A DNA stretch of 26,694 nt from a virus, in the IMG/VR virus record IMGVR_UViG_3300028388_004717, positions 1 to 26,694 of that record; one strand, written 5' to 3'. The notes under the pieces were generated by a model. That model did no database searches. It was not told the DNA's origin and saw nothing but the letters and a program-made list of their open reading frames with translations. The translations under genes and the position numbers were made by a program. Shown piece by piece: positions 1-26,694 of this stretch (the first letter of the stretch is position 1; each line of letters opens with the position of its first letter).

Positions 1-48
1 GCCTATGACCGGGGATACCTCGACGGTGAGCGCTTGGCCCGGCACTAA
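1..48 (+). CDS. 3' fragment of small hypothetical gene (complete copy at 26482-26643)
   Basis: The last 15 codons and TAA stop of the 53-residue gene at the right end, reading YDRGYLDGERLARH before the stop. It is only a fragment because the circular contig was opened here; it is not a second gene. Confidence 0.85.
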   Translation, partial: AYDRGYLDGERLARH

Positions 49-79
49 AAAACCCCTCACGCGCTCGGAGGGATTTTTT
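47..79 (+). terminator. Bidirectional intrinsic terminator
   Basis: A run of six A and CCCTC pairs with GAGGG and a run of six T across a 9-nt loop. The U-tract is present in both directions. It sits at the stop codon of the preceding small gene and separates it from the promoter at 133-161. An identical copy lies at 26642-26674 because of the terminal repeat. Confidence 0.8.
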
Positions 80-132
80 AGCCAACAGCTTTAGTATACA
101 TCACACTACCCCCGGCACCACAAAACAGAGTA

Positions 133-161
133 TTGACTTTATTTACCTATGGGTGTATACT
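133..161 (+). promoter_or_regulatory. Sigma70-type promoter with inverted repeat
   Basis: TTGACT at 133-138 and TATACT at 156-161, separated by exactly 17 bp. Transcription would start near 168, leaving a leader of about 22 nt before the ATG at 190, so this gene is not leaderless. The arms ACCTAT (145-150) and ATAGGT (162-167) form an inverted repeat that embraces the -10 box, a plausible operator. This is the only clear two-box consensus promoter I see in the window. Confidence 0.7.
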
Positions 162-189
162 ATAGGTATAGTAATAACCAATCAACACT

Positions 190-735
190 ATGACCAACAC
201 ATTCAAAGCAGAATTCGATACCTATTCAATCAGTAGCGGCACCAAAATAGGGAATACTTACCAAGTGGTAGACGAACTCGCCACCCGCAAGAGCATCAGA
301 AAGACACTCGAGGAGCACAACGTGCCAAAGGCGACCACCCAATGGGATGATGATGGTGACTACCATTTCTCTATCACCACCCTCGATGGGTACAGAAACT
401 CAGACCGAAAAAAGTTTCGCATCTACCTCGATGATGACAGCTACGGCTCAAAGTCATTCATTCAATCAAATGATGAGGGCGAAATCCCCCTCGCAAAACT
501 CATCGAGAAGATGACTGAGCACCAGCAGTATTTTCAAAATCGCACTGACCGCAAACGCAAAGAGAATGAGGCCAGTGAGAAGCGTGAGAAACTAGCCGAG
601 CAGCTCAGCGACAAGCTCAGCAAATACGGTATCCGGGTGCAGAACAGCTACGGCCGCATCGTTATCAAAGCCGAGTTTTACGACAACGCCGAGGCCGAGG
701 CATTCGCTAACGAATTAATCAATAAACTCAACTAG
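190..735 (+). CDS. Hypothetical protein, early-type, 181 aa
   Basis: I do not recognise the family. The N-terminal half (residues 1-100) is mixed and acidic, with WDDDGDYHF and YLDDDSYGSKSF segments. Residues about 105-145 are strongly charged and likely a helical coiled coil (KRKENEASEKREKLAEQLSDK). The last 35 residues look like a small alpha/beta unit. It is the first gene after the only consensus -35/-10 promoter and is followed at short spacing by two very small genes, so the three probably form an early operon. A DNA-binding or regulatory role would fit the position but nothing in the sequence proves it. Initiation at ATG 190 is preceded by an A-rich leader without a clear Shine-Dalgarno. 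Confidence 0.75.
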   Translation: MTNTFKAEFDTYSISSGTKIGNTYQVVDELATRKSIRKTLEEHNVPKATTQWDDDGDYHFSITTLDGYRNSDRKKFRIYLDDDSYGSKSFIQSNDEGEIPLAKLIEKMTEHQQYFQNRTDRKRKENEASEKREKLAEQLSDKLSKYGIRVQNSYGRIVIKAEFYDNAEAEAFANELINKLN

Positions 736-756
736 ACCTATGACCATCGATGAAGC
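728..756 (+). repeat. 29-bp direct repeat over a gene start, copy 1
   Basis: Bases 728-756 are identical to 873-901. Each copy covers the end of one gene, the short spacer ACCT and the first five and a half codons of the next. This points to a recent duplication or recombination that placed the same translation-start cassette in front of two different small genes. Confidence 0.9.
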
Positions 757-880
757 AATCGAAGCACTGACACTCGCAATCGAAAAACACAACGTATACC
801 CAATGACCCAAGAGCAAGAGCACCTCACATTCGTCGACGGACTACTCCACGCGCGGGGCATTATCAGTAAAATCAACTAG
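740..880 (+). CDS. Small hypothetical protein, 46 aa
   Basis: A 46-residue frame starting ATG 740, only four bases after the previous stop. It begins MTIDEAIEALTLAIEKHN and looks helical and soluble; no domain is recognised. The 29 bp spanning its start (728-756) are repeated exactly at 873-901, where they form the start of the next gene. The two proteins therefore share the first seven residues MTIDEAI and then diverge. Coding is supported by the spacing, the shared start module and typical codon use, but not by homology that I can name. Confidence 0.6.
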   Translation: MTIDEAIEALTLAIEKHNVYPMTQEQEHLTFVDGLLHARGIISKIN

Positions 881-901
881 ACCTATGACCATCGATGAAG
901 C
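873..901 (+). repeat. 29-bp direct repeat over a gene start, copy 2
   Basis: Second exact copy of 728-756, giving the gene at 885 the same start region as the gene at 740. Confidence 0.9.
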
Positions 902-1031
902 TATCGCAACACTAACCCGAGAGTGCCAACGCTGCGGCCACAAATGGCTCCTCCGCCGCAACGTAAAGCCAACGGTGTGCCCAAAATGCAAGAGCGCATA
1001 CTGGGATACGAAAAAAGAAGCGACTGGATAA
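885..1031 (+). CDS. Small zinc-ribbon protein, 48 aa
   Basis: A 48-residue frame with two CxxC knuckles (CQRCGH and CPKCKS) separated by about 16 residues, a classic zinc-ribbon layout, often used for nucleic-acid or protein binding. It starts with the same MTIDEAI as its upstream neighbour because of the 29-bp repeat at 873-901. It is followed by a strong terminator at 1049-1074 that would close the early operon starting at 190. Specific function unknown. Confidence 0.65.
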   Translation: MTIDEAIATLTRECQRCGHKWLLRRNVKPTVCPKCKSAYWDTKKEATG

Positions 1032-1034
1032 CCA

Positions 1035-1201
1035 CTCCCCCAGTACCTAAAGACCCCCCCAGCGGGGTCTTTTTGGTGGGGGAGAGCAAACACCGCTCTA
1101 TAGAGCCATATCTCGGATAACCCTACCACTCCCCCACCGGTACCACTCCCCCACCGATATGGCCGATATCAGCAAAAATCAGCGACCTATCAGTGGGGGA
1201 G
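1035..1201. repeat. Iteron-like CTCCCCCAC repeats upstream of terS
   Basis: An 8-9 bp word CTCCCCCA(C) occurs at 1035-1042, 1129-1137 and 1146-1154, and its reverse complement GTGGGGGAG at 1076-1084 and 1193-1201. Two copies lie in a 17-bp tandem repeat (1124-1140 and 1141-1157, differing at the last base). The patch is non-coding and ends about 40 bp before the small terminase gene. A packaging (cos/pac) site or replication origin would suit the place and form, but neither can be decided from sequence alone. Confidence 0.55.
1049..1074 (+). terminator. Intrinsic terminator
   Basis: AAAGACCCC (1049-1057) pairs perfectly with GGGGTCTTT (1064-1072) across a 6-nt loop, with five T from 1070 on. 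It ends the small-gene operon 190-1031. Confidence 0.85.
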
Positions 1202-1242
1202 GGGGGAGCCCCTGGCACACAACTATGATATGCTGATAGGGT

Positions 1243-1686
1243 ATGGCAACTAAAAAGCGCCCGAGCAAAAAGACACTCAAGAACAGCAGCTCAACAGCTG
1301 TGGCGACCAAAAAGACAACCAAAAAGACAACCAAAAAGGTCATCGGCCGGCCATTTAAGAAAGGGCAGAGCGGCAATCCAGGTGGTCGACCCAAAGGAGC
1401 CCGAGACCGCCGCACCGTTATCTGGGAGGCATTAAAGGTCCTGGCCGAACGTAAAGGACACACTCCCGAGGAGGTCGAGACCGCTCTCCAGGTGGCGGCA
1501 ATAGAAAAAGCCGGCAAAGGCTCATTCCTCCACTACGCCGAGCTCTCCAATGGCCTTTATGGCAAGGTCACTGATGATATCGATATCAAGAGCGGCGGTA
1601 AATCTATCGCCGACCTAATTGCCCTGGCCCACAATGCAAAACGACCCCCAACAGATACTCCAGCTGCAGGAGAGAGTACGGACTGA
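1243..1686 (+). CDS. terS: Terminase small subunit candidate (DUF5681-like)
   Basis: 147 residues. The first 40 are lysine/threonine rich with repeated TTKKTTKK. Residues about 41-60 carry FKKGQSGNPGGRPKGARD, the signature that I associate with DUF5681 proteins, which commonly occupy the small-terminase slot. The rest is helical. In phages of this layout the small subunit recognises the packaging site and recruits the large subunit. It overlaps the large terminase start by 53 bp, and the repeat patch 1035-1201 lies just upstream. A TATGAT box at 1224-1229 lies 13 nt before the ATG. Assignment rests on the domain phrase plus position. Confidence 0.75.
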   Translation: MATKKRPSKKTLKNSSSTAVATKKTTKKTTKKVIGRPFKKGQSGNPGGRPKGARDRRTVIWEALKVLAERKGHTPEEVETALQVAAIEKAGKGSFLHYAELSNGLYGKVTDDIDIKSGGKSIADLIALAHNAKRPPTDTPAAGESTD

Positions 1687-2995
1687 CCCCGAATTCTTCC
1701 ACAACGAAATCTTGGGCTATAAACCCTGGGAGCGGCAGCTCGAGATTTCGGACAGCATCACACACAATCGCAATACTGCCGTGCGCAGCTGCAACGGTGC
1801 CGGCAAAACATTCCACATCGCGCGGGAGGGCCTGCGCTTTATGTATAGCTACTACCCCGCCGTGGTATTCAACACCGCTCCAGTCTGGACCCAGGTTGAA
1901 AATCAATACTGGCGGTATTTCAGAGATGCCTACGCTAAAGCCCAATACCGCCTCGGCGGCCGGCTCCTTAAAACCGCCCTCAACATCGATGAGGACTGGT
2001 ATGCGATGGGTCTCGCTAACGACCCCAACCGGATGGAGGCATTCCAAGGATGGCACGGTAAACACATTCTCGTTATATTCGATGAGGCATCTGGTATCAG
2101 CCCGAAAATTTATGAGGCCGCCGCAGGCGCGATGGCTGGAGGGCAGGTGGTGCGGTCGGTGATGATTGGCAACCCGACCCAGAACTCGGGACCATTCCAC
2201 GATGCCTTTAGTGACCCCAATTTCTCCAAAATCACCATCAGCGCACACGATGTGCCCAACGTAAAGGAGCGCCGCCAGGTCATCCCAGGGCTCATCACTC
2301 ACGACTGGGTGGAGGAGATGGCCAGCCGGTACGGTGAGGACAGTGATGTATACAAGGTGCGCGTGCTGGGGCAATTCCCGCGTAACGCCTCAGACACGCT
2401 CATCAGTGTGGATAGTGTGCAGCAAGCTATCGAGGCAGACCGGGAGCGTTATGGCGATGATGAATACCTCGGGCTCGATGTGGCACGCTTCGGTGATGAC
2501 ACCACTGCCCTCGTATACCGGCGCGGTAACTATGCCCGCGTGCTCGGCAAGTGGCACGGCAATGACACAATGCAGACCACGGGCAAGGCGGTCCAGGCGC
2601 TACGCGACTATCCCAACGCAAATATATACATCGATGTGGTCGGAGTGGGGGCAGGCGTATTCGACCGGCTCCGGGAGCAGCCCAAGGTATCCGGTCGGGT
2701 CTTTGGTGTGAATAGCGCCGGCCGGGCGCGAGATAACGAGGAGTATATCAACATCCGAGCAGAGAGCTGGGCGACCGCTCGGGAGTGGCTCAAGGATGCT
2801 GTGCTCGAGCAACACGAGGACTGGTACCAGCTCGGGGTCCCCAAATACAAAATCACCTCGGCCGGTAAAATCCAGCTCGAGAGCAAGGAGGATATGAAGA
2901 AGCGCGGAGTGAAATCACCCGACGTGGCGGATGCCCTTGCCCTCACCCTCTCTCGACCAACCGAGGGAGAGAATATCGGCTTGGTGTGGCTGTAG
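1634..2995 (+). CDS. terL: Terminase large subunit
   Basis: ATPase-nuclease that packages DNA into the prohead. From ATG 1634 it is 453 residues, a normal length for the family. Walker A is SCNGAGKT at residues about 52-59 and Walker B ILVIFDE ends near residue 151. The C-terminal RNase H-like nuclease is visible as LGLDVARFGDDTTA, then IYIDVVGVGAGVFDRL, then a late acidic segment SPDVADALAL. A TTG at 1619 would add five residues, but ATG 1634 is preferred. It overlaps terS and is followed by the portal after 27 bp. No intein or frameshift is visible. Confidence 0.95.
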   Translation: MQNDPQQILQLQERVRTDPEFFHNEILGYKPWERQLEISDSITHNRNTAVRSCNGAGKTFHIAREGLRFMYSYYPAVVFNTAPVWTQVENQYWRYFRDAYAKAQYRLGGRLLKTALNIDEDWYAMGLANDPNRMEAFQGWHGKHILVIFDEASGISPKIYEAAAGAMAGGQVVRSVMIGNPTQNSGPFHDAFSDPNFSKITISAHDVPNVKERRQVIPGLITHDWVEEMASRYGEDSDVYKVRVLGQFPRNASDTLISVDSVQQAIEADRERYGDDEYLGLDVARFGDDTTALVYRRGNYARVLGKWHGNDTMQTTGKAVQALRDYPNANIYIDVVGVGAGVFDRLREQPKVSGRVFGVNSAGRARDNEEYINIRAESWATAREWLKDAVLEQHEDWYQLGVPKYKITSAGKIQLESKEDMKKRGVKSPDVADALALTLSRPTEGENIGLVWL

Positions 2996-3010
2996 CTGAT
3001 ATGGGCGTGA

Positions 3011-3016
3011 TACAAT
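3011..3016 (+). promoter_or_regulatory. Extended -10 box for leaderless portal mRNA
   Basis: TGA-TACAAT ends 6 nt before ATG 3023. Transcription is expected to start 6-7 nt after the box, that is at the start codon itself. Confidence 0.6.
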
Positions 3017-3022
3017 ACTGAT

Positions 3023-5134
3023 ATGGATATTCGCTCAAGATTGGCTCAACTTTTTGGCACTAAAAACTCACCCACAACATCCTACACGGGCACTTGGGAT
3101 GTCGCCGGAGGACCTACGAACTCGTACCAGGAGCGCAACGCCCTCGAGGCCAATCGAGAGTGGGTAGGTATCGCCGTCGACCTGGTAGCCAAGAGTGCCG
3201 GCGCGGTGCGGCTCAAGGTGATGCAGTACAAAAACCAGGAGGATGCAGAGGTATTCACCGGCCCGTTGTATGATTTTATAGAGCAGCCTGGCCAAAATCT
3301 CACCATCACTGATTTCGTATATCTCAATACGGTATACAAAGAGCTTACCGGCAATGCATTCTGGTACCGAGAAAAACCCAGCCGCCACCTCGAGCCAATC
3401 CTCCCCACCAGCATCCGACCAATTCTCGATGACACAAAAACCAGGCTGCTGCGCTATGAGCAGTTTGCGGGAGGCAAGTCTCGCCACCTCGAGCTCGATG
3501 ATGTGCTGCACGACCGCTATATCGACCCCGCGCGACCGTACTGGGGGGCGGGTAAACTTGCCAAGATTGCGCCCTGGGTCGATACCAGCACATACGCCAC
3601 TGAATTTCTGCGCCGCTTTTTTCTCAACGGTGCGACCTTTGGTGGCTTTATAGAAACTGAGGAGGAGAGCCAGGAGCGCATCAAACTCATCAAAGCCGGG
3701 CTCCAGAATGACCACGTGGGGGTCAATAACGCACACAAAATCGGTATCCTGCCCAAGGGCTCAAAATTCACCCAGACTGTCGCCAATATGCAGCAGATAG
3801 AGATGGGCGCGACCGATGACCGCTACCGAGACAAAATCCTCTCGGCCTTTGGGGTGCCCAAAAGTATGGTGGGGCTTGTGCAGGATGTAAACCGAGCCAA
3901 CGCCGAGGCCAACGAATATCTGTTCGCGCAGCATACTATCAAACCAATCATCCTCGACCTGATAGACTTCCTCAATCTGCACGTAGCCAAAGAGCTGGAC
4001 CCCGCTGGCCAGTATTATTTCAGTTTCGATGAATTCGTACCGACCAATATGGATATAGAGCTGCGAGAGCGTGAGATTGCACTCAACCGCCAGCCATACA
4101 AGACGGTCAACGAGGTACGAGCTGAGCAAGGGCTGCCGCCGGTCGATGGTGGAGATGTGGTCTATGGTCCACCATTCCAGTCACCCCTCGGCTCCTCATT
4201 CAATTTCGATAATCAACCCGCTGCGCCTGCGCCAGTAAAAAGCAACCCGCCCAGCCGCTCGGCCTACTCACGCATTCGCAAGGTGGTACAAAAAGAGAAA
4301 AACCGCGATGCGCTCGCCGAGAAACTAGCCGAAAAAGCTATCGAACGTGAAGCCAATCGCACTACTGAGGAGCTGGATGCGATTGCTCACCGCTCATTCG
4401 TTGGCCGGGTCGAGAGCTACCTGGACCGGGTAGGTGAGGCGGTCCGAGGCTTCAATAACAAGCAGAAGCAGCAAGTGCTGCAGGACATCTCTCGTATCAC
4501 TAAAGCAGTGAGCAAGGATGACCTATTCGATATGGACCAAAGCATAGCGGCGATGGTCGATTTCGTGAGCCCGGTGCTGCGTGGGCTGATGACCGAGCAA
4601 GCCTTTGCAGAGTATGAGGCGCAAGGTTTCGAGGGCTCATTCGATAGCGGCGACCAAATGCTCGAGAAGATAGTCGACCGCGAGACCGAGCGCCTGGCCA
4701 AAGCGTACAACGCCACCACCGCCAACCTCCTCAAAAACACCCTCGACCAAGGTATCCGCGAGGGCGATGGCCTGGCCGAGCTCACCGAGCGCGTGCAGCA
4801 GGTGTACGAATTCAGTGATGCGACCCGCGCCAAGGCTGTGGCTCACACCGAGGCGTTCCACATTGCCAACCAGGGCAACCTGGAGGCATACCGCCAGAGC
4901 GGGGTAGTGCAATCGCAGCGCTGGTACACAGCCGAGGATGAGATGGTCTGCCCGTACTGCCAGCCGATGAATGGTACGGTGATTGGCCTCAACGATGTCT
5001 ATTTCGAGAAAGGTAGCACGATGATAGGCAGCGACGGCAAGCCACTCCAGCTTAATTACCGCGCAATCGATGCGCCGCCGCTGCACACCAACTGCCGGTG
5101 CTTTATTCGCCCAGATACTATCTCAATAGACTAG
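3023..5134 (+). CDS. Portal protein fused to MuF-type head protein
   Basis: 703 residues. Residues about 1-400 form an HK97-type portal: an N-terminal stretch with NALEANREWVGIAVDLVAKS, a central FLRRFFLNGATFGGFIE and a stem region AFGVPKSMVGLVQDVNRANAE. A charged helical linker (about 410-560) follows. The C-terminus is a MuF domain, with AVAHTEAFHIANQGNLEAY, MVCPYCQPMNG and the terminal PPLHTNCRCFIRP, where cysteines and histidine may bind metal. These two functions are usually separate adjacent genes, so the fusion ties the minor head protein to the portal ring at a fixed stoichiometry. The gene starts at a leaderless-type promoter. Confidence 0.93.
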   Translation: MDIRSRLAQLFGTKNSPTTSYTGTWDVAGGPTNSYQERNALEANREWVGIAVDLVAKSAGAVRLKVMQYKNQEDAEVFTGPLYDFIEQPGQNLTITDFVYLNTVYKELTGNAFWYREKPSRHLEPILPTSIRPILDDTKTRLLRYEQFAGGKSRHLELDDVLHDRYIDPARPYWGAGKLAKIAPWVDTSTYATEFLRRFFLNGATFGGFIETEEESQERIKLIKAGLQNDHVGVNNAHKIGILPKGSKFTQTVANMQQIEMGATDDRYRDKILSAFGVPKSMVGLVQDVNRANAEANEYLFAQHTIKPIILDLIDFLNLHVAKELDPAGQYYFSFDEFVPTNMDIELREREIALNRQPYKTVNEVRAEQGLPPVDGGDVVYGPPFQSPLGSSFNFDNQPAAPAPVKSNPPSRSAYSRIRKVVQKEKNRDALAEKLAEKAIEREANRTTEELDAIAHRSFVGRVESYLDRVGEAVRGFNNKQKQQVLQDISRITKAVSKDDLFDMDQSIAAMVDFVSPVLRGLMTEQAFAEYEAQGFEGSFDSGDQMLEKIVDRETERLAKAYNATTANLLKNTLDQGIREGDGLAELTERVQQVYEFSDATRAKAVAHTEAFHIANQGNLEAYRQSGVVQSQRWYTAEDEMVCPYCQPMNGTVIGLNDVYFEKGSTMIGSDGKPLQLNYRAIDAPPLHTNCRCFIRPDTISID

Positions 5135-5150
5135 AGAGAAATCACCGTGG

Positions 5151-5156: not shown

Positions 5157-5162
5157 AAATAT

Positions 5163-5997: not shown

Positions 5998-7161
5998 ATG
6001 GAGAAGCACGAAATCAAAGAAGTGTTCGGTGAGGTCCTTACCGAGCACGATGAAGAAATCAAGGCAGAACTCCGCGCCATCGCAGGCGATGAGGCTGCTG
6101 AGAAAGCTGCCGCAGCAGTAAAGGCTGCCCGCATCGATGAGATGCGCAATGGCACCCGACTGCTCGATAACGACAGCAAGGCTGCATTCGCAGAAGATAT
6201 GCGAAAGCTCGCCTCGGGCGAAAAAGCTGCCTACCTTACGGTCTCAGACCAAACGGGTGGCTACCTCGTACCAACTGAGGTACATAATGAGATTATGCGT
6301 ATCGCAGCTACTACCGGTGTAGTAGCCCGCGATGCACGCCGCTTCCCCGTCGCCGATATCGAAATCCCAACCTACAGCGGAGCTGTGATGCAGGGACAGT
6401 ACATCGGTGAGGATAGCGCAGGCTCAGAGACCCAGAACGACATCGGGATGGCTCGCCTCAAGTCTGCTCAGTGGGTGGAATTCTTCCGCGTGAGCAACCG
6501 CCTCATCCAAAAAGCCACACCATCTATCGGTGAGTGGCTGATGGGTCTTGTGGGCGAGGGCTTGGCCTACCGCCTCGACCGTGAGGGCTTTATGGGAGGT
6601 ACTTACGCTGGCTCGCCATTCGTAGGGCTCCTCGGCTCAAGCGATGTCACTACCCAGACCCTCGGCTCTGGCCTGACCGACTTTAACGATGTCACCCCAG
6701 AGGAGGCATCAGAGGCTATTGGTGCAGTAGATACTGCCGCCCTAGCTAACGCCGGTTTCTACTTCCACCGCACCGTGTGGGCGCAAATCCGCGCACAAAA
6801 AGACGGTACCAGCGGCGAGTATGTATTCCGCCAGGACCACGCACCATTCGCGCAAATCCAGCGTGAGAGTGGTATCCAACCTGTTGGCTCAATGTGGGGC
6901 TACCCGGTATACACCACCGATGTACTACCTACATTCGCCGATACAGCCGTGAGCACCAAATTCGGTGTATTCGGCAACCTTTCACTCGCCTTGGCGATGG
7001 GAGAAGATGGCCCAATGGATATGGCACGCTCTGGCGATGCTGTTATCGGTGGCAAGTCTACATTCGAGCGAAATCAAACTGCATTCCGCTTCACCCACCA
7101 ACACGCGCTCAGCGTAATGCTCGGCAGTGCTGCAGTGGTATTCGAGACCGCCGCATCTTAA
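5998..7161 (+). CDS. Major capsid protein (HK97 fold)
   Basis: 387 residues. The N-terminus (about 1-55) is charged and helical, a short delta-like scaffold domain to be removed by the protease. The mature part starts near the TVSDQTGGYLVPTEVHNEIM segment (about residues 81-100), the usual start of HK97-type capsids. Further family-like segments are the IPTYSGAVM, the AQWVEFFRVSNRLI and the GNLSLALAMGEDGPM stretches. It is followed directly by two small genes typical of the head region. Cross-linking residues cannot be judged by eye. Confidence 0.92.
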   Translation: MEKHEIKEVFGEVLTEHDEEIKAELRAIAGDEAAEKAAAAVKAARIDEMRNGTRLLDNDSKAAFAEDMRKLASGEKAAYLTVSDQTGGYLVPTEVHNEIMRIAATTGVVARDARRFPVADIEIPTYSGAVMQGQYIGEDSAGSETQNDIGMARLKSAQWVEFFRVSNRLIQKATPSIGEWLMGLVGEGLAYRLDREGFMGGTYAGSPFVGLLGSSDVTTQTLGSGLTDFNDVTPEEASEAIGAVDTAALANAGFYFHRTVWAQIRAQKDGTSGEYVFRQDHAPFAQIQRESGIQPVGSMWGYPVYTTDVLPTFADTAVSTKFGVFGNLSLALAMGEDGPMDMARSGDAVIGGKSTFERNQTAFRFTHQHALSVMLGSAAVVFETAAS

Positions 7162-9820: not shown

Positions 9821-10795
9821 ATGGCAAAGTTTATAGGGCGTACTGCCGATGTCGGCATTGCAAAGGAGGCGAGCCGGGGCACTGCTGAGGCCAGTGCTGA
9901 TTTCTGGGTCCCCAAGGTATCACTGACACTCGATGATGGCATCGAGCAGGTCATCGATGAGAGCAGCGTAGGTGTCATCGAGGATGCCACCGATGCAGTC
10001 GTGGTAGGTAAATACGCCACCGGAGAAATCGAGGGCAATATCGGCAGCGACAGCATCGGCCTCATCCTCCTCTCTGCTCTGGGCTCAGTCTCTACCTCGG
10101 GACCAGCCGATACCTCGGTCTACACTCACACCTTTACGGTAGCGCAATCAGCGCAGCACCAATCACTCACACTATTCCTCGACAATGGTGTGCAGGATTA
10201 CGCATTCCCTCTGGCAATGCTCGACACCTTTGGCCTCGACATCTCCCTCGGGCAGTTTGCACGCTTCACTGCTGGATTTCGCTCGAAAGCCGGTGAGACC
10301 GACACGCTTACACCGTCGTATACCGCAGAGAGCACATTCCTGCCGCAGCACGGCACGGTGAAGCTCGCCGCCAACGTCGCAGGCTTGGGCGCAGCATCCG
10401 CTATCGATGTGCGCAGCGTACAGCTCAACATCTCCAAAAACTTAATGGATGACTATAAACTGGGCTCTATCAACCAGGATGATATTCTCAACCAGCAGTT
10501 TGCGGTAGAGGGTACAGTGGAGCTCGTATTCGATGCAGAGACATTCAAAGACGATATGCTCGCCGATACAGCCAAGGCGATGCGCATCGCGCTCACCAAT
10601 TCAGATGTGACCATCGGCGGCTCGAGCAACCCGTCGCTCACGGTCGACCTGAGCAAAATCAAGGTGGTGAGCTTCGAGACTAACTATGACAATAATGGCA
10701 TTGTTACCGCTACAGCCAACTTCAAAGCGCTCTATAACACTACCGACAATGATATGATAGAGGTGGCGCTCGTAAACGAGACCACTAGCTACTAA
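9821..10795 (+). CDS. Major tail (tube) protein
   Basis: 324 residues, beta-rich and without Cys-rich or membrane regions. It starts MAKFIGRTADVGIAKEASRG and contains repeated acidic strands typical of tail-tube proteins. TGEIEGNIGSDSIGLILLSA, the FTAGFRSKAGE block and YKLGSINQDDILNQQFAVEG are the parts that recall phage tail-tube families. It precedes the frameshifted chaperone and the tape measure, which fixes its role by synteny. Confidence 0.85.
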   Translation: MAKFIGRTADVGIAKEASRGTAEASADFWVPKVSLTLDDGIEQVIDESSVGVIEDATDAVVVGKYATGEIEGNIGSDSIGLILLSALGSVSTSGPADTSVYTHTFTVAQSAQHQSLTLFLDNGVQDYAFPLAMLDTFGLDISLGQFARFTAGFRSKAGETDTLTPSYTAESTFLPQHGTVKLAANVAGLGAASAIDVRSVQLNISKNLMDDYKLGSINQDDILNQQFAVEGTVELVFDAETFKDDMLADTAKAMRIALTNSDVTIGGSSNPSLTVDLSKIKVVSFETNYDNNGIVTATANFKALYNTTDNDMIEVALVNETTSY

Positions 10796-11131: not shown

Positions 11132-11337
11132 CGGATAGCGTGCGGCTATATAGTCTCGGCAAGCTCGACAACTTAATGCTCACCGCCACCATCTGCGAAA
11201 TGTATGGCTGGACCTGGGATGAGTACCACAGCCAGCCCGCATTTTTTCTCGAGGCTATCAGAGAGAAAATAGTGCGAGATAATAAAGAGAGGGAGCTCGA
11301 GGTAAAGAAAATTAAAAATGGCCAGCCGAGATACTAA
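11125..11337 (+). CDS. Frameshift extension of tail chaperone (gpGT-like)
   Basis: A -1 shift on A-AAA-AAG (11119-11125) bypasses the TAG at 11129-11131 and continues through ELADSVRLYSLGKLDNL to the stop at 11335-11337, giving a fusion of about 176 residues. The extension has no ATG of its own; the only early start is a GTG at 11140. It overlaps the tape measure start by 20 bp. The helix FFLEAIREKIVRDNKERELE is typical of the T part. Long-tailed phages often make G and GT forms this way, so this is a strong prediction although the event itself cannot be seen in DNA. Confidence 0.85.
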   Translation, partial: ELADSVRLYSLGKLDNLMLTATICEMYGWTWDEYHSQPAFFLEAIREKIVRDNKERELEVKKIKNGQPRY

Positions 11338-20962: not shown

Positions 20963-20974
20963 ACCAACCACACT

Positions 20975-21076: not shown

Positions 21077-21083
21077 AACTGCT

Positions 21084-21803
21084 ATGACCAACACAACAGA
21101 TGACTTTTTCGCTAACGCGCCAACTGATTACGAGGTACCCAAAGGCGAAAGCCGGTACCTAAAATTCAAGCAGCCCGGCCAGTACAAGCTCCGCATCCTG
21201 CAGCGCCCAATCTTTGGGTGGGAGGCCTGGACTGTCGGTGAGGATGGCAAGGACCATCCAGTGCGCTTTGCAATGGATAGCCGCCCAACTGATGTGAGCC
21301 CGTACCGTAACGGCAAGCTGAGCCACTTCTGGGCGATGCCGGTGTACAACTTCAATACCCAACGGGTAGAGGTACTCAACATCACCCAAGCCACTATTCA
21401 GCAGCAAATCGAAGCCTATGCCCGCAATACTGACTGGGGCAGCCCACTCGCGTACAACCTAACCATCACCCGCGCCGGCACCGGCCTCAACGATACCAAG
21501 TACAGTGTAGTGGCCAGCCCACACTCAGCCCTGCCCGAGGAGGCGCTGGCTGAGTGGGAGCAAGTACAAGCTGATGGCTTCGACATCACTGAGCTGATGC
21601 GTGATGGCGACCCGTTCACAACTAAAGACGGCAACCCGCAGCACGTAGCGCCAGAGGCTCCACAAGCGCCTCAGACGGCCGCACCCGCTCAACCCGAGCC
21701 AGTAGCCGCACCGGCTCCAGAAACGCCGCAGGTGGCACCACAGCCAGCCACACCGCCTGCTCCAGCCGCAGCACCGGTCAATACTAACCAACCAACCGCA
21801 TAG
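21084..21803 (+). CDS. Single-stranded DNA-binding protein
   Basis: 239 residues from ATG 21084. The core (about residues 20-150) shows the pattern of phage SSBs: SRYLKFKQPGQYKLRILQ, the RVEVLNITQATIQQQIEAY segment, DWGSPLAYNLTITRAGTGL and YSVVASPHS. These form an OB fold that coats ssDNA during replication and recombination. Residues about 180-239 are a long Pro/Ala/Gln linker (PEAPQAPQTAAPAQPEPVA-like), a flexible tail; unlike cellular SSB it does not end in a typical acidic tip. No polymerase is encoded nearby, so it probably works with host replication proteins. Confidence 0.8.
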   Translation: MTNTTDDFFANAPTDYEVPKGESRYLKFKQPGQYKLRILQRPIFGWEAWTVGEDGKDHPVRFAMDSRPTDVSPYRNGKLSHFWAMPVYNFNTQRVEVLNITQATIQQQIEAYARNTDWGSPLAYNLTITRAGTGLNDTKYSVVASPHSALPEEALAEWEQVQADGFDITELMRDGDPFTTKDGNPQHVAPEAPQAPQTAAPAQPEPVAAPAPETPQVAPQPATPPAPAAAPVNTNQPTA

Positions 21804-21805
21804 CT

Positions 21806-22138
21806 ATGAAGAAACTGCTACTCAACATCTCGGTGAACGGCAACATCATTCACACGCGCGAAATCACCGCCGCCGAGGCACTAAAGGAATTCGAGCGGGG
21901 TGCAGATACAGCACCCACCGCACCCGCTAAACGCGCAAAGCGCAGCGGCCGCCAAGCAGGCAAACCAAACCGCTGCCGCATCTGCGGCAAGGTAGGCCGC
22001 ACGGCACTGAGCTGCAAAGCGGACAAAAAACATCCGCGCCAAAAAGACAACGATGGTCGACTGCTTACTACTGAGCCATCCGAGGAGCGCTCAGAATGGC
22101 AACCGCTCAGCAGCCTCAACCGTACCGTGACCGTATGA
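21806..22138 (+). CDS. Basic protein with zinc knuckle, 110 aa
   Basis: Begins two bases after the SSB stop. Residues about 1-35 form an alpha/beta unit (KKLLLNISVNGNIIHTREIT). Residues 45-65 are Ala/Lys/Arg rich and the centre has CRICGKVGRTALSC, a plausible three-cysteine zinc knuckle, followed by a basic stretch KADKKHPRQKD. Likely nucleic-acid binding. Being in one operon with the SSB it may take part in DNA handling. No named family. Confidence 0.65.
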   Translation: MKKLLLNISVNGNIIHTREITAAEALKEFERGADTAPTAPAKRAKRSGRQAGKPNRCRICGKVGRTALSCKADKKHPRQKDNDGRLLTTEPSEERSEWQPLSSLNRTVTV

Positions 22139-22251
22139 TAGAGGAGCTGCACGGTCCTATCCGCCGCAAACCATCCCAACCCCGGCGCAACCATACGCTG
22201 AGCATCGGGCTCATCATCCTGGTCGCTATCGTGTGGGTACTCATCACCTAG
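22135..22251 (+). CDS. Small single-TM protein, 38 aa
   Basis: Overlaps the previous stop as ATGA. A basic N-terminus (IRRKPSQPRRNH) is followed by one hydrophobic helix LSIGLIILVAIVWVLIT that ends at the C-terminus: a tail-anchored miniprotein. An in-frame ATG at 22096 would add 13 residues. The positive-inside layout favours a real membrane protein. Confidence 0.5.
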   Translation: MIEELHGPIRRKPSQPRRNHTLSIGLIILVAIVWVLIT

Positions 22252-22253
22252 AT

Positions 22254-22451
22254 ATGGCACAGAAAAAACTAGACCCCACCATCCGCTACATCACCATCAC
22301 CCTCCGCGCAGAGCTGAACTCGGGTGCAGTGGAATTCGTGAGCAGTGGCACCGAGCCTGTCGACACGATGATACGCAAGATGAAGCTCCAGGTGCGAAAT
22401 AAATATCCCGGCCTCGAGGGTAAAACAATTCGCACAATCGATGTATACTAG
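22254..22451 (+). CDS. Small hypothetical protein, 65 aa
   Basis: MAQKKLDPTIRYITITLRAE, alpha/beta, soluble. It begins two bases after the TM protein and ends with a -10 box for the downstream RNA overlapping its last codons. No recognised domain. Confidence 0.6.
   Translation: MAQKKLDPTIRYITITLRAELNSGAVEFVSSGTEPVDTMIRKMKLQVRNKYPGLEGKTIRTIDVY
22444..22449 (+). promoter_or_regulatory. -10 box of intergenic small RNA 2
   Basis: TATACT is embedded in the final codons of the gene ending at 22451 and ends 6 nt before the hairpin at 22456. Confidence 0.5.
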
Positions 22452-22455
22452 GTGA

Positions 22456-22522
22456 GCAGCTAACGCTGCGAGCTCTACGTCGATACACAACACACCCGTC
22501 AGTGGCCTGGCGGGTGTGTTGT
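22456..22522 (+). ncRNA. Candidate small RNA 2 (5' hairpin + terminator)
   Basis: GCAGC-TAAC-GCTGC (22456-22469) forms a perfect hairpin starting exactly at the predicted transcription start. The linker contains GCTCTACGTCGATA, similar to the linker of RNA 1 (GCTCAACGACATCAATA). The 3' end is a 12-bp perfect stem (22487-22498 with 22511-22522). No coding frame fits. It probably belongs to the same RNA type as the one at 20237. Confidence 0.5.
22487..22522 (+). terminator. Terminator hairpin
   Basis: ACAACACACCCG pairs perfectly with CGGGTGTGTTGT across a 12-nt loop; only a weak U-tract (ATTATGT) follows. Confidence 0.7.
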
Positions 22523-22562
22523 ATTATGTAAAGAGGAGCACCTATAAAAAAGGAGAGACACG

Positions 22563-22757
22563 ATGACCAAAGCCGTTACCGAAGATGGTCACACCTTTGG
22601 CCTCACCCAATGCGCTGCCTGCGGGGACCTTATCCACCAAGAGGAGGCCCTCGTTAAGACGGTACACGCCGGGCAGAGCACATTGCAGGAGCATTTCTGC
22701 GGCACCAACTGCCATCACCGCTGGTATATCAACCGGCTCAACACAATGGGGCTGTAA
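22563..22757 (+). CDS. Small zinc-finger protein, 64 aa
   Basis: Preceded by AAAAAAGGAG at 7-8 nt from the ATG, one of the few clear Shine-Dalgarno sites in the window. The protein has CAACGDLIH and, about 28 residues later, CGTNCHHRWY, a C2-C2/H type zinc site. The same layout occurs in the next gene (CANCGLIHY and CRPSCHRRYH), so the two are tandem paralogues or members of one family. Possibly nucleic-acid binding. Confidence 0.7.
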   Translation: MTKAVTEDGHTFGLTQCAACGDLIHQEEALVKTVHAGQSTLQEHFCGTNCHHRWYINRLNTMGL

Positions 22758-22960
22758 TGCGGCGGGGGCTAGAAAAATGCGCCAACTGTGGCCTCATCCA
22801 CTACATCAACCAATCACCCGCGGTATATATTGGCGGGCAGTACTACTGCCGGCCATCCTGCCATCGCAGGTACCACGAAACCAAAAAGGAGATATCCAAT
22901 GCGGATGGTACTACTCGCATCGCTGCTCCTCACGGCAGCGGCATCTGCGGCCGAGACTGA
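22757..22960 (+). CDS. Small zinc-finger protein, 67 aa (paralogue of previous)
   Basis: Start overlaps the previous stop by one base (TAATG). CANCGLIHY at residues 8-16 and YYCRPSCHRRYH at about 29-40 form the zinc site shared with its neighbour. The last third is different and overlaps the signal-peptide gene at 22899 by 62 bp in another frame, so the C-terminus may be under little constraint. Confidence 0.6.
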   Translation: MRRGLEKCANCGLIHYINQSPAVYIGGQYYCRPSCHRRYHETKKEISNADGTTRIAAPHGSGICGRD

Positions 22961-23243
22961 ACGCTCGCCGCGGATAATGCTCAACCCCGGCGCTCTGTTG
23001 TGCGACACGCCGGAGCAACTGCTGGAGTACATCGATGGCCAGGCAATGGCCACGGTCCCCGGCTGCGGCCTCTCTACCCAACCGATGTGGGTGGAGATAG
23101 AGCCGCTCGAGAGCTACGAGGCGCACCACCGGCGCTTCGACCTCATCGTGTATCACTTCCCGATGATGACCGCCTCGGGCCTGCAGTGGTGGACCCAGTA
23201 CGGCTACTGGGGAGTGCCCGAGCACCTCAATACGGCGCTGTAG
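22899..23243 (+). CDS. Exported small protein, 114 aa
   Basis: ATG 22899 has a strong Shine-Dalgarno (AAGGAG, about 7 nt upstream). The N-terminus MRMVLLASLLLTAAASAA is a textbook signal peptide with an AxA cleavage site. The mature part (about 96 residues) has two cysteines (LLCDTPEQL and VPGCGLS) that may pair, and a Trp/Tyr rich end (QWWTQYGYWGVPEHL). The CDTPEQ phrase is reminiscent of small periplasmic/exported proteins. A role at the cell surface or in superinfection control is possible; no direct evidence. Confidence 0.75.
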   Translation: MRMVLLASLLLTAAASAAETERSPRIMLNPGALLCDTPEQLLEYIDGQAMATVPGCGLSTQPMWVEIEPLESYEAHHRRFDLIVYHFPMMTASGLQWWTQYGYWGVPEHLNTAL

Positions 23244-23314
23244 CACTTGGCAGAGAAACCAAAACCGACCAGTGCCGGCAACTATGCACCCGCCCTCCCT
23301 CGGGTGCTTTTTTT
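23243..23314 (+). ncRNA. Candidate small RNA 3 (5' hairpin + terminator)
   Basis: GCACTTGG (23243-23250) pairs with CCAGTGC (23269-23275) with one bulged T, followed by a short linker and the strong terminator at 23286-23314. A weak box TACGGC (23231-23236) lies 6 nt before the first stem base. The organisation copies RNA 1 and RNA 2, but the promoter is poor and the transcript could simply be the 3' end of the upstream mRNA. Confidence 0.35.
23286..23314 (+). terminator. Intrinsic terminator
   Basis: GCACCCG (23286-23292) pairs with CGGGTGC (23301-23307), followed by seven T. Confidence 0.9.
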
Positions 23315-23319
23315 CGCGG

Positions 23320-23325
23320 TATAAT
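23320..23325 (+). promoter_or_regulatory. -10 box for leaderless rusA mRNA
   Basis: A perfect TATAAT ends 6 nt before ATG 23332, six bases after the terminator T-run. Confidence 0.65.
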
Positions 23326-23331
23326 AAACCT

Positions 23332-23679
23332 ATGACCATCACGGTCCCACTACCAACCAAAGTATCCCTCAATAAAATATACGGCGGGGTCCACTGGAGC
23401 ACGCGCAAGCGCCACAAAGATGAGTTTGCGGAGGCGGTCTGGGCGTGCCGCCCTAAAACCTATACTGGAGCGTACCCGGTACACATCACCTACTACTTTC
23501 AATTCAAAGGCCGCCGGCTCGATAGCACCAACTGCGCCTATATGGCCAAGCTGCTCGAGGATGCCCTCATCACCGAGGAGGTCATCCCCGATGATGCGCC
23601 CAGATTTGTGGCCAGCACGCAGCTGGTCCCGTGTGCGGGTAATAACGAGGTACTTATCGAAATCACACCGTGCGAATAG
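23332..23679 (+). CDS. rusA: RusA-like Holliday junction resolvase
   Basis: 115 residues, the usual length. N-terminal PLPTKVSLNKIYGGVHWSTR and the active-site region LDSTNCAYMAKLLEDALI followed by VIPDDAP match RusA, which cleaves four-way DNA junctions with carboxylates around the KLLEDAL...DD block. The classical first aspartate (often D-x-DN) appears as LDSTN, with D and N in the expected places. In this phage it probably resolves recombination or replication intermediates before packaging. Transcribed from a leaderless promoter. Confidence 0.88.
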   Translation: MTITVPLPTKVSLNKIYGGVHWSTRKRHKDEFAEAVWACRPKTYTGAYPVHITYYFQFKGRRLDSTNCAYMAKLLEDALITEEVIPDDAPRFVASTQLVPCAGNNEVLIEITPCE

Positions 23680-23897
23680 TTTTTATAATTTTGTGCTGGG
23701 TTTTTTGGGGAGCAATAATCGGCTTCTACTTTGGGCACAGCAGCGGCGACCCTATCCAGTACACCGAGGCGCAAGGGCAGCGGTGGTGCTTGGTCGCCCA
23801 GCACCAACGGGTGTCGGGGATACAATACCCCGGCCGGGAGGTGTACCTCATCGATATCGATGGTAGCTGGGTGCGGATATTCGAGCGGTGTGGATAG
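23670..23897 (+). CDS. Small membrane-anchored protein, 75 aa
   Basis: Starts with GTG 23670, overlapping the rusA stop by 10 bp. A hydrophobic N-terminus (IVFIILCWVFWGAIIGFYFG) acts as signal anchor, followed by a soluble region of about 50 residues with beta-type sequence (REVYLIDIDGSWVRIFERCG). No family recognised. The overlap suggests translation coupled to rusA. Confidence 0.6.
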   Translation: MRIVFIILCWVFWGAIIGFYFGHSSGDPIQYTEAQGQRWCLVAQHQRVSGIQYPGREVYLIDIDGSWVRIFERCG

Positions 23898-23936
23898 TGT
23901 GGGGAGAATGGGGATGGCACTCGAGCGTGAGTGTGG

Positions 23937-23942
23937 TAGCAT
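23937..23942 (+). promoter_or_regulatory. Extended -10 box before the structured region
   Basis: TGG-TAGCAT ends 6 nt before position 23949, which is an ATG and also the predicted 5' end of the structured RNA. Confidence 0.5.
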
Positions 23943-23948
23943 ACTGGT

Positions 23949-24080
23949 ATGCCTAGTAACAACGTAAAATACGATAGTATTTTCAGTGCGAGCAAGGATG
24001 CGACATTCGTTTCTTTTCTCGCGTTGTTACGCGGCATCACATTCTCCCTGGCTTCGGCTGGGGATTTTGTGTGTTGCTAA
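23949..24080 (+). CDS. Possible 43-aa frame inside structured RNA (doubtful)
   Basis: ATG 23949 is placed 6 nt after a TAGCAT box as at the leaderless genes, and opens a frame MPSNNVKYDSIFSASKDATF to TAA 24080. However, the same bases form several perfect helices, the composition is unlike a protein gene, and no domain is visible. I list it only as the alternative to a non-coding RNA. Confidence 0.25.
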   Translation: MPSNNVKYDSIFSASKDATFVSFLALLRGITFSLASAGDFVCC

Positions 24081-24220
24081 CCAGCCGGTAGCGCTGTTCT
24101 CGTAATCAGCGACACCAAATAGACGAAACCCCCGGCCGGTTGGTAGATGCAAAGCGCTGGCCCTGTCGCCGCCTGACAACCAGCGACCTCATCTGCCCGC
24201 CGGTCGTTTCTCCCACCACT

Positions 24221-24226
24221 TACAAT
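24221..24226 (+). promoter_or_regulatory. -10 box candidate
   Basis: TACAAT in the 3' part of the structured region; a transcript would start near 24233 and could serve the small genes from 24366 on. No ATG follows at the leaderless distance. Confidence 0.35.
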
Positions 24227-24262
24227 AGAAGCCACGGGGCAACCTTAGTGCGGAGGGAATAG

Positions 24263-24418
24263 GTGGCAAGGGAGTACTACTGGCCTACATACACCACCAC
24301 CCAACACGACCGAAAGGGTATGAGGGAGATAGAGGCGGTGTACCTATCAAATAACTATTCACATTATGACAACACCTCTACCAAAAACGCGCGGGCAATA
24401 TCTCAAAGCGCTGAATGA
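24263..24418 (+). CDS. Possible small GTG-start frame, 51 aa (doubtful)
   Basis: GGAGGG at 24252-24257 is a good Shine-Dalgarno five bases before GTG 24263. The frame reads VAREYYWPTYTTTQHDRKGM onward and ends inside the next gene (overlap 53 bp). The ribosome site is the only support. Confidence 0.3.
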   Translation: MAREYYWPTYTTTQHDRKGMREIEAVYLSNNYSHYDNTSTKNARAISQSAE

Positions 24419-24587
24419 TATAAAGCTCGAGCTCCTATCGAACGACCAACCAAACGGGCGCGGTATTACCGAGGCCCTCTGCCTCCTCACTATGGCCGTT
24501 GTAGAATTAAAGGAGGCGCTCGAGCCAGAATACAAATACACCCCAGAATATGAAGCAGCCGACATTCAACCATCTCAACCTGAGTAA
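24366..24587 (+). CDS. Small hypothetical protein, 73 aa
   Basis: Helical and acidic: KTRGQYLKALNDIKLELLS and EALCLLTMAVVELKEALEP. No domain named. It opens a set of four tightly packed or overlapping small genes that continue to 25410. Confidence 0.6.
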   Translation: MTTPLPKTRGQYLKALNDIKLELLSNDQPNGRGITEALCLLTMAVVELKEALEPEYKYTPEYEAADIQPSQPE

Positions 24588-24822
24588 CCCCACTACCGGT
24601 CCCCGCAATCAACGTGAGGACCTCATCGAGCAAATCGTGGCGCAGTGCCAGCACCGGACCCCAAAGGATGCACGCAACCTGGCCCGGCTCCTGGCTATCA
24701 CCACCAACAGCGCTGGCTGGACCACCACGGACCTCCACGCGCTCCTCAAGAAGAAGCAGGACCCAGGTATTAACAACTACACCGCATTCGTGTGGTGGAG
24801 CGCTAAAATGAAGAAACTATGA
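24550..24822 (+). CDS. Small hypothetical protein, 90 aa
   Basis: Overlaps the upstream gene by 38 bp. Polar N-terminus, then helices REDLIEQIVAQCQHRTPKDA and NLARLLAITTNSAGWTTTDL, ending KQDPGINNYTAFVWWSAKMK. The regular helix pattern suggests a small DNA- or protein-binding fold, but no family is recognised. Confidence 0.6.
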   Translation: MKQPTFNHLNLSNPTTGPRNQREDLIEQIVAQCQHRTPKDARNLARLLAITTNSAGWTTTDLHALLKKKQDPGINNYTAFVWWSAKMKKL

Positions 24823-25121
24823 ACCTACCAAAAGAATGGCCGGAGAAAGGCATAAAGTATATGCAAGAGGGTCACAATAAAGACCGCAAAGGGTACACAG
24901 ACGGCTACAATCAGTGCTGGGAAGACTGCACCGCAGCCCTACCAGCCGTGGTGGAGGAAGCGAGGCGAGAGGAGCGGGAGAGGACACGAGTAATTATAGA
25001 AACGCTCAAATCTACTTTGGATTTTACAGTACTCACCCTCAATAGAGGAGAGGCGGGGGAACTCGCATTAGATAAAGTGATAGAAGCCCTTACCCAACCA
25101 ACCGACGTAACCGATAACTAG
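24819..25121 (+). CDS. Small helical protein, 100 aa
   Basis: Overlaps the upstream stop by 4 bp (ATGA). GYTDGYNQCWEDCTAALPAV is followed by a long charged helix (VVEEARREERERTRVIIETL). A GYxxGY-type element also appears in the small protein at 26482 (YDRGYLDG). Composition is more A/T-rich than the structural genes, as in the next two genes. Confidence 0.6.
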   Translation: MNLPKEWPEKGIKYMQEGHNKDRKGYTDGYNQCWEDCTAALPAVVEEARREERERTRVIIETLKSTLDFTVLTLNRGEAGELALDKVIEALTQPTDVTDN

Positions 25122-25122
25122 T

Positions 25123-25410
25123 ATGACAAACCAACCAGAGAGAAGTGTCGAGGAGATAGTGGAAGACAAGTATCAACATTTTCTGTTACAAAAAGGCAAA
25201 AACGACGCAGAAACCATAGTTCTCAGAGCACTTAAATACCGTCAAGACATTACTAATCTTCTCCAAGCCGAACGCCAGAGGCGTGATGAGATGGTGGAGG
25301 AGAGGATGAAAATGATGTTACATATGATTGGAGAACACCCAGAGCTAACAAAAGAACAGGTATTAGAGTTTATTCGTAGAGAGTTCACCCCACCCAATAA
25401 CCCTAACTAG
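25123..25410 (+). CDS. Small helical protein, 95 aa
   Basis: Starts one base after the previous stop. Highly charged and helical (EIVEDKYQHFLLQKGKND, ERQRRDEMVEERMKMMLHMI, ending in HPELTKEQVLEFIRREF). Possibly a coiled-coil partner of its neighbour. A/T-rich codon use. No domain recognised. Confidence 0.6.
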   Translation: MTNQPERSVEEIVEDKYQHFLLQKGKNDAETIVLRALKYRQDITNLLQAERQRRDEMVEERMKMMLHMIGEHPELTKEQVLEFIRREFTPPNNPN

Positions 25411-25411
25411 T

Positions 25412-25498
25412 ATGAAGCAGCACCTCATTATCTACACCCAGCGCCTCTACCGCACCGCTTGGCGGCTCTGGCTGCGTATCACCGGGCGTGTATCATAG
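25412..25498 (+). CDS. Very small basic peptide, 28 aa
   Basis: ATG 25412 lies one base after the previous stop. MKQHLIIYTQRLYRTAWRLW is amphipathic and rich in Arg, Trp and Tyr. Position in the run of linked genes is the only support for coding. Confidence 0.35.
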   Translation: MKQHLIIYTQRLYRTAWRLWLRITGRVS

Positions 25499-25524
25499 AT
25501 ATTATAAAAGTAAAAAAATTGGCT

Positions 25525-25530
25525 TATACT
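25525..25530 (+). promoter_or_regulatory. -10 box candidate before the methyltransferase
   Basis: TATACT lies just upstream of the methyltransferase. The predicted transcript would start at 25536-25537, just before the Dcm motif I codons, but no ATG is found there. Confidence 0.4.
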
Positions 25531-25540
25531 AACTCATTAC

Positions 25541-26470
25541 GACTTATTCGCTGGTATTGGGGGCTTCTCTTACGCCTTGGACCAAGTATTCTATGAAGAA
25601 AAAATCGAACACATTTTCTGCGAGTGGGAAGCGTTCCCCACAGCAATCCTTAAAAAGCACTGGCCAGACGCAACCTACTATGGTGACATCGCCGACCTTG
25701 TTGCCGACACCGAACACGATGGACAGTTTACCCCCACGGGACAACACCAAGCTGAGAGAATGGAACAACAGTCGAGATGGTCGAAAGAACCGCGTAGCAC
25801 TAAGCAATCTAAGGGAAGCGATACAAGACCCTCACTATCTATCCTCACAGGAGGCTTCCCCTGCCAACCATTCAGTCACGCTGGACAAAGAAAAGGAACG
25901 GCAGATGACCGCTACAAGTGGCCAGAAATGTATGCGGTCATTAAAAACGTCAGACCAGATTGGGTCATCGCTGAGAATGTGCGTGGCTTCGCTACTTGGA
26001 ACGACGGCTTGGTACTCGAGCGCACGTGCACTGACCTGGAAAACCAAGGTTACAAGGTCCAACCGTTTATTATTCCAGCTGTCGCCGTCGGTGCGCCGCA
26101 CCAACGAGAAAGAGTTTGGATTATTGCTCACACCATCAACGGTGGACAGAGGCGAGCGGAGCGAAGCAGCGATGAAACACCGGATAGCGTACCGCAAGAG
26201 TATCGGTCGCAAGACGGTGCCACCGGGGAGTCTGAGCGAGCAGCTGGCGACGGGTACGACCACCGACCTTGGGAAGCAAACTGGCGAGAAATTGCGCTTG
26301 CAACCTGCAATGACGGAGTGGATGATGGGCTTCCCCGATGGATGGACAGAGTTACCATCAGCGCAGCCAAACACCGCAAGGAACGCCTAAAAGCGTGCGG
26401 GAATGCAATCGTTCCACAGGTAGCAATGGAGATATTCAAAGCAATAAAAATTACTCAAGAGCAGGACTAA
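25541..26470 (+). CDS. dcm: C5-cytosine DNA methyltransferase (start codon unclear)
   Basis: Transfers methyl from S-adenosylmethionine to cytosine in DNA. Motifs in order: I DLFAGIGGFSYAL (from 25541), a CEWE segment, YGDIADL, IV TGGFPCQPFSHAGQRKG with the catalytic Cys (codon 25862-25864), VI VIAENVRGF, VIII APHQRERVWIIA and X ACGNAIVPQVA near the end. The frame is open from 25514, after TAA at 25511-25513, but has no ATG, GTG or TTG before motif I; the first canonical start is TTG 25577, which would delete the SAM-binding glycines. About 50 extra residues lie between YGDI and motif IV compared with usual Dcm enzymes, and exactly there another frame looks conserved. It probably protects phage DNA from restriction. 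Confidence 0.85.
   Translation, partial: DLFAGIGGFSYALDQVFYEEKIEHIFCEWEAFPTAILKKHWPDATYYGDIADLVADTEHDGQFTPTGQHQAERMEQQSRWSKEPRSTKQSKGSDTRPSLSILTGGFPCQPFSHAGQRKGTADDRYKWPEMYAVIKNVRPDWVIAENVRGFATWNDGLVLERTCTDLENQGYKVQPFIIPAVAVGAPHQRERVWIIAHTINGGQRRAERSSDETPDSVPQEYRSQDGATGESERAAGDGYDHRPWEANWREIALATCNDGVDDGLPRWMDRVTISAAKHRKERLKACGNAIVPQVAMEIFKAIKITQEQD
25593..26390 (+). CDS. Overlapping frame inside dcm resembling a known phage protein type
   Basis: A 265-residue frame (ATG 25593; TTG 25557 also possible) runs across almost the whole methyltransferase in another phase. It is not random in content. LLPTPNTMDSLPPRDN with NSRDGRKNR and LSNLREAI, then LTWKTKVTRSNRLLFQLSPS, then RRTNEKEFGLLLTPSTVDRG, and finally AMTEWMMGFPDGWTELPSA. 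These phrases recall a family of phage proteins that I remember near or fused to phage cytosine methyltransferases. Two conserved frames over the same DNA would be true dual coding. The alternative is a shadow frame whose look-alikes in databases are themselves mispredicted shadows. Confidence 0.45.
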   Translation: MKKKSNTFSASGKRSPQQSLKSTGQTQPTMVTSPTLLPTPNTMDSLPPRDNTKLREWNNSRDGRKNRVALSNLREAIQDPHYLSSQEASPANHSVTLDKEKERQMTATSGQKCMRSLKTSDQIGSSLRMCVASLLGTTAWYSSARALTWKTKVTRSNRLLFQLSPSVRRTNEKEFGLLLTPSTVDRGERSEAAMKHRIAYRKSIGRKTVPPGSLSEQLATGTTTDLGKQTGEKLRLQPAMTEWMMGFPDGWTELPSAQPNTARNA

Positions 26471-26481
26471 AATAATCGTGT

Positions 26482-26643
26482 ATGCCAAGCCTCGAAAAAC
26501 AACTCGACCAGATGCGCCAGGTACTCCTCGAGCACCGGGTCTCTCCCTCGCAATCGTTTCACATAATGAATACCTACGAGCAAGCGCTGCGCACCGCCTA
26601 TGACCGGGGATACCTCGACGGTGAGCGCTTGGCCCGGCACTAA
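26482..26643 (+). CDS. Small hypothetical protein, 53 aa
   Basis: ATG 26482 to TAA 26643, crossing into the terminal repeat. MPSLEKQLDQMRQVLLEHRV and YEQALRTAYDRGYLDGERLA are helical and charged. The end carries the YDRGYLDG element also hinted at in 24819-25121. It is closed by the terminator at 26642-26674. Function unknown. Confidence 0.65.
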   Translation: MPSLEKQLDQMRQVLLEHRVSPSQSFHIMNTYEQALRTAYDRGYLDGERLARH

Positions 26644-26694
26644 AAAACCCCTCACGCGCTCGGAGGGATTTTTTAGCCAACAGCTTTAGTATAC
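26596..26694. repeat. 99-bp direct terminal repeat, right copy
   Basis: Exact copy of bases 1-99. Joining the two copies gives an uninterrupted small gene, a bidirectional terminator and then the promoter at 133-161, so the junction is biologically sensible. Confidence 0.9.
26642..26674 (+). terminator. Bidirectional intrinsic terminator (second copy)
   Basis: Same hairpin as 47-79, duplicated only by the contig overlap. It ends the methyltransferase and small-gene unit. Confidence 0.8.

Follow-up and report, generated by a model that had tools for sequence, protein, structure and literature searches.

The question raised by this locus is how the DNA of a tailed phage could come to lack two four-base palindromes, CATG and GATC, over its entire length. 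The window, by which we mean the whole stretch of DNA that was analysed, is a contig of 26,694 bp from an uncultured tailed phage (IMG/VR record IMGVR_UViG_3300028388_004717) and may be incomplete. Its GC content is 54.7% and its predicted genes lie on the + strand. The gene set comprises an HK97-type head, a terminase, a portal-MuF fusion, an S78 protease, a major capsid protein and tail proteins including a tape measure protein, together with an M23 endolysin, a RusA-like resolvase and a C5-cytosine DNA methyltransferase frame. The features to which we refer are listed in Table 1.

Table 1. Positions of features in the window
Feature	Position	Strand	Basis or remark
CATG-free, GATC-free contig, both strands	1..26694		Direct count
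Terminase large subunit	1619..2995	+	phrog_2, E 1.3e-38; query for finding relatives
Portal-MuF fusion protein	3023..5134	+	PF04860 and PF04233
Major capsid protein	5998..7161	+	PF05065; relatives at 55-63% identity mostly near-normal in GATC and CATG
TTA-ATG example (rare Leu codon ahead of Met)	10442..10447	+	Codon-context count; others at 11173, 11642, 15225, 18993
C5-cytosine DNA methyltransferase frame	25529..26470	+	PF00145, E 6e-36; phrog_363, E 3.6e-62
Open +1 frame inside the methyltransferase gene	25557..26390	+	Conserved part 25863..26355
GAGTC, sole GANTC site in the window	26228..26232		1 found; 88 expected (Markov), 46-58 (codon shuffles)

Neither CATG nor GATC occurs in the window, against 90 and 122 copies, respectively, expected from a maximal-order Markov model. 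Synonymous-codon shuffles of the 38 predicted genes gave expectations of 51 ± 5.5 for CATG and 120 ± 7 for GATC, and under the strictest null, in which the dinucleotides at codon junctions were also preserved, these were 53 and 81; the lowest counts in 300 such shuffles were 43 and 65. The non-coding DNA (about 2.9 kb) is likewise free of both words. A preliminary description of the window had reported that CATG was missing and that other palindromic four-base words were present. The tetranucleotide counts and the shuffles confirm that the absence is real, and the remaining 14 palindromes are all found, with 36-212 copies each. The two codon-aware nulls rule out a by-product of amino-acid composition or codon usage. 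A count far below both composition-aware and protein-aware nulls, as expected of restriction-site avoidance, is found for GATC, CATG and a third word, GANTC, which is discussed below.

The preliminary description also rested on codon choice ahead of ATG. Among the 110 codons that directly precede ATG none ends in C, where 38 would be expected (log10 P = -23.6); the third base is G in 50, T in 34 and A in 26. Aspartate before ATG is GAT in ten cases out of ten and tyrosine is TAT in six out of six, glycine is GGT four times and GGG once, and leucine is TTA five times and CTG five times. Histidine before a codon starting with G is always CAC (35/35) and aspartate before codons starting with C is always GAC. 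The choice of TTA or CTG, GGT and GAT ahead of methionine, as previously described, therefore holds apart from the single GGG, and the TTA-ATG positions given there agree with those in Table 1 to within one base. Because codon choice is adjusted at each ATG and each His-G junction, an artefact of the library or of assembly is not plausible. We do note a small unexplained excess of TTA: its five cases before ATG, out of ten, are more than avoidance of CATG predicts (26 of the 301 allowed leucine codons are TTA; P = 0.0008), and in the relatives described below the corresponding figure is 3/46.

Start codons had been described as never preceded by C, in agreement with our count for ATG starts, of which 29 follow a T, three an A, one a G and none a C. 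The predominance of T at 29 of the 33 starts exceeds what avoidance of CATG needs. Seven genes (3023, 5163, 7961, 14130, 16034, 18500 and 23332) have a TANNNT box that terminates exactly six bases ahead of the start codon, and few genes of the window have a Shine-Dalgarno-like stretch; this spacing and scarcity suggest that the transcripts may be leaderless.

Capsid, portal and terminase searches yielded relatives of the phage, both phages and prophages, that have its head and tail genes in common, with protein identities of roughly 45-80%. In those whose capsid proteins are 55-65% identical, GATC and CATG are mostly near-normal. Exceptions include the prophage of the gammaproteobacterium LSUCC0112 (L012), with 24 GATC found for 91 expected, and L010, with 5/21 for GATC and 11/23 for CATG. 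Two further prophages lie in Parerythrobacter (L013) and in a Sphingomonadaceae MAG (L014). All three prophages are temperate relatives that have the head-gene order of the window and capsid and terminase proteins that are 55-69% identical, but they sit in bacterial chromosomes and their GATC and CATG counts are near-normal, except for GATC in LSUCC0112. At residue-identical positions the window keeps 0/153 of the GATC sites and 0/100 of the CATG sites of its relatives; control palindromes at such positions are kept at 7-72%, and the average tetramer at 36%. The loss is thus specific to the lineage of the window and could be achieved silently, with no change to the proteins at the compared positions.

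Could the absence nevertheless have followed passively from protein composition, from codon usage or from a composition inherited by the whole clade? The relatives are themselves mildly low in CATG, with a median of about 0.83 of expectation, but both codon-aware nulls, the counts in the relatives and the residue-matched comparison all contradict such a reading. For GATC and CATG it is refuted, and we attach a negligible probability to it. Inherited clade composition in particular is ruled out for these two words by the relatives' counts but is a candidate for GANTC, a word that most relatives also lack in part and that shows no lineage-specific deficit of the kind seen for GATC and CATG.

Joint poverty in CATG and GATC is uncommon, not unique: of the 76 sequences with terminase-related loci that are 7 kb or longer, only L046 (IMGVR_UViG_3300035698_020178) is also poor in both. 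This low-GC sequence has CATG 0/18, GATC 2/21, GGCC 0/15, GTAC 0/15 and CTAG 2/25 (found/expected). Another, L052 (IMGVR_UViG_3300042922_000211; 19.3 kb), has GATC 0/37, GGCC 0/17 and GGNCC 0/28. The search for a host gave capsid relatives in bacterial genomes that were at best 55-58% identical; in 385 sampled genomes from the class of one prophage host no terminase was closer than that of its 69% prophage, and a lysin-based search found no relatives. DpnII-type endonucleases (PF04556) are present in nine of these 385 genomes, with no link to the phage of the window.

GANTC is a third depleted palindrome that the preliminary description overlooked, with a single copy in the window (Table 1). 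When words containing GATC or CATG are set aside, the only 5-mers missing from both strands are GAATC, the absence of which is part of the GANTC deficit, GAAGG/CCTTC and GGACG/CGTCC. For GAAGG and GGACG 21-28 copies are expected under the strict null, and at residue-identical sites of relatives they have been lost at 99/99 and 61/61 positions, respectively. Their standing as avoided words stays suggestive because other 5-mers deviate strongly without being absent. Clearance against about five specificities at once, the palindromic GATC, CATG and GANTC with the asymmetric GAAGG and GGACG, is conceivable, though we are inclined to doubt it; loss of asymmetric sites, if true, would be unusual, as orthodox Type II sites account for most of the eliminations that have been published. 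GRCGYC and GGSSCC are also absent (21-30 expected), and GGAAA and GAACC are among the other reduced 5-mers. We do not claim these four as avoided sites, as several 5-mers lie off the null without being plausible restriction sites. At the level of tetramers, GAAC/GTTC is found 56 times for 103 expected and GAAG, GACG and GGAA are likewise reduced, none of them being absent; in the relatives the frequency of GAAC/GTTC is normal. In L008, L009 and L015 GAAGG is almost gone (1/11, 2/16 and 2/15 found/expected) and GATC and CATG are just mildly low, which hints that a sister lineage avoids other words.

In our view, the best explanation of the missing GATC and CATG, and a likely one, is that two or more restriction specificities of its hosts have selected against these sites over a long time. 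The phage would infect a host or hosts whose restriction enzymes act at GATC and CATG and perhaps at further words. Every unmodified site would expose the incoming genome to cutting, and selection on the whole molecule would strip all of the sites, mostly via synonymous changes, and purge new ones. In favour of this are the zero counts under the strictest null, the near-normal counts in most relatives, the residue-matched comparison, the neighbouring words considered below, the published precedents and the occurrence of DpnII-type endonucleases in the class of one prophage host. We infer Type II restriction as the agent and at least two specificities, and the phage may seldom or never be lysogenic, no integrase having been detected among the scanned proteins of a contig that may be incomplete. 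The preliminary description had proposed two separate restriction specificities. Separate specificities are indeed the best reading of a loss that is lineage-specific, affects coding and non-coding DNA alike and depends neither on protein sequence nor on any single mutation type, but 'two' may be an undercount in view of the one copy of GANTC and the absence of GAAGG and GGACG. Several points count against restriction-driven counter-selection: no GATC or CATG endonuclease is tied to the host of the phage, as the DpnII matches come from different members of the class; the C5-methyltransferase frame of the phage could offer an alternative means of protection; and the reduction, short of absence, of GAAC, GAAG and GACG points to some composition bias unrelated to restriction.

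Methylated cytosines are prone to mutation, and deamination at methylated sites could have removed both words with no selection against cutting. The spectrum of neighbouring words disfavours such mutational decay. The C-to-T products are not in excess (AATC/GATT at 0.95 and CATA/TATG at 0.67 of expectation), whereas the single-base neighbours CATC/GATG, GAGC/GCTC and GACC/GGTC stand at 1.5-1.7 of expectation, with several transversion neighbours enriched; nor do the third bases before ATG show a surplus of T. On this evidence selection against the site is a better fit than a single mutation process, and we consider a mutational origin very improbable. The cutting might instead have been directed at modified DNA, by DpnI-like Type IIM, Mrr-like Type IV or phosphorothioate-dependent defence, with sites that are modified in one host being attacked in another. 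GATC (Dam) and GANTC (CcrM) are classical orphan adenine-methylation sites, and GAAC/GTTC, the low count of which in the window is not seen in the relatives, is a known phosphorothioation word. To our knowledge, however, CATG is not a usual orphan-methylation or phosphorothioate site, and GAAC is lowered, not eliminated. Methylated GATC is restricted by Mrr in Haloferax (PMC7230728), yet published eliminations mostly concern orthodox Type II systems (PMC6286503). We regard modification-directed defence as rather unlikely; a methyl-directed nuclease is a weaker contender than restriction, and chiefly where GATC and GANTC are concerned.

The GANTC deficit taken alone may have an origin other than restriction, namely the host-wide depletion of GANTC in CcrM-bearing Alphaproteobacteria, adopted by their phages. 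Most relatives are poor in GANTC (for example, 3/37 in L006, 18/78 in L014 and 19/68 in L020, found/expected), Sphingomonadales account for two of the three prophage hosts, the count in the gammaproteobacterial prophage is normal (101/93), and Ensifer genomes hold 0.9-1.8 GANTC per kb for about 3.5 expected (PMC8725594). One copy for 88 expected is, however, a deeper deficit than in most relatives, comparable only with L006 and the short L021 (0/12). The chances that host background accounts for this word seem to us even, which makes it about as likely as restriction. The depletion of GANTC in most relatives and in CcrM-bearing Ensifer, and not in the gammaproteobacterial prophage, points weakly to an alphaproteobacterial host.

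The C5-methyltransferase frame has motifs I, IV (PCQ), VI (ENV), VIII (QxRxR) and X in order, as read from the translations, and could possibly protect the phage at some site other than GATC or CATG. Its expression is uncertain because the frame contains no ATG, GTG or TTG before motif I (window 25505-25577), only ATA or CTA; this may reflect a rare start, a dead gene or a sequencing error. The +1 frame inside this gene is open and conserved (Table 1). The encoded protein has counterparts, in the same relative frame, in four divergent phages: Paenibacillus phage Lily, Lacticaseibacillus phage R9.1, Salmonella phage SalP219 and phage C72C1. The similarity lies 5.9-7.2 SD above synonymous shuffles of both genes, and for the stretch of the gene that precedes the overlap the corresponding value is about zero. 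The annotation of phage Lily lists this frame as 'g62 internal gene', and our literature search found no paper on a +1 frame within the methyltransferase gene. It is probably a dual-coding gene, which merits a study of its own and may be more novel than the avoidance of sites.

Site avoidance, including the simultaneous loss of two palindromes, is already known, and the window adds a different set of words. Roughly one viral genome in ten was reported to have undergone complete or almost complete elimination of sites, chiefly orthodox Type II ones and more commonly in non-temperate phages (Rusinov et al., 2018; PMC6286503). The site-avoiding non-temperate dsDNA phages of that study have, like the window, wholly lost short Type II-like palindromes genome-wide. 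They differ in having hosts and enzymes that are known or predicted (PMC6286503) and in that the window combines the loss or near-loss of two tetramers with that of one interrupted pentamer. In the HF1 group of haloviruses CTAG and GATC are wholly missing from isolates, GATC persists in related proviruses at 0.45 of its expected frequency and most members carry a methylase gene (PMC7230728). These viruses thus share with the window the complete loss of two tetranucleotide palindromes, the site-bearing related proviruses and, in most, the methylase gene, but they are archaeal myoviruses in which CATG is only reduced (0.24-0.44; PMC7230728); CTAG, which they have lost, has 36 copies in the window. 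Our literature search found no description of a phage from which CATG and GATC are jointly missing. The site loss in the window is unusually complete and, for GATC and CATG, is not common to its relatives.

As site avoidance is well established, the interest of the window as a case of it is moderate. On the explanation that we prefer, the missing words would be a readable record of the nucleases met by the phage lineage, and would thus hint at which hosts it infects and how wide their range is. Relatives that share its head genes still bear the sites, and three of these relatives reside in chromosomes, so that the case provides a clean natural comparison of how the loss of sites tracks restriction by the host.
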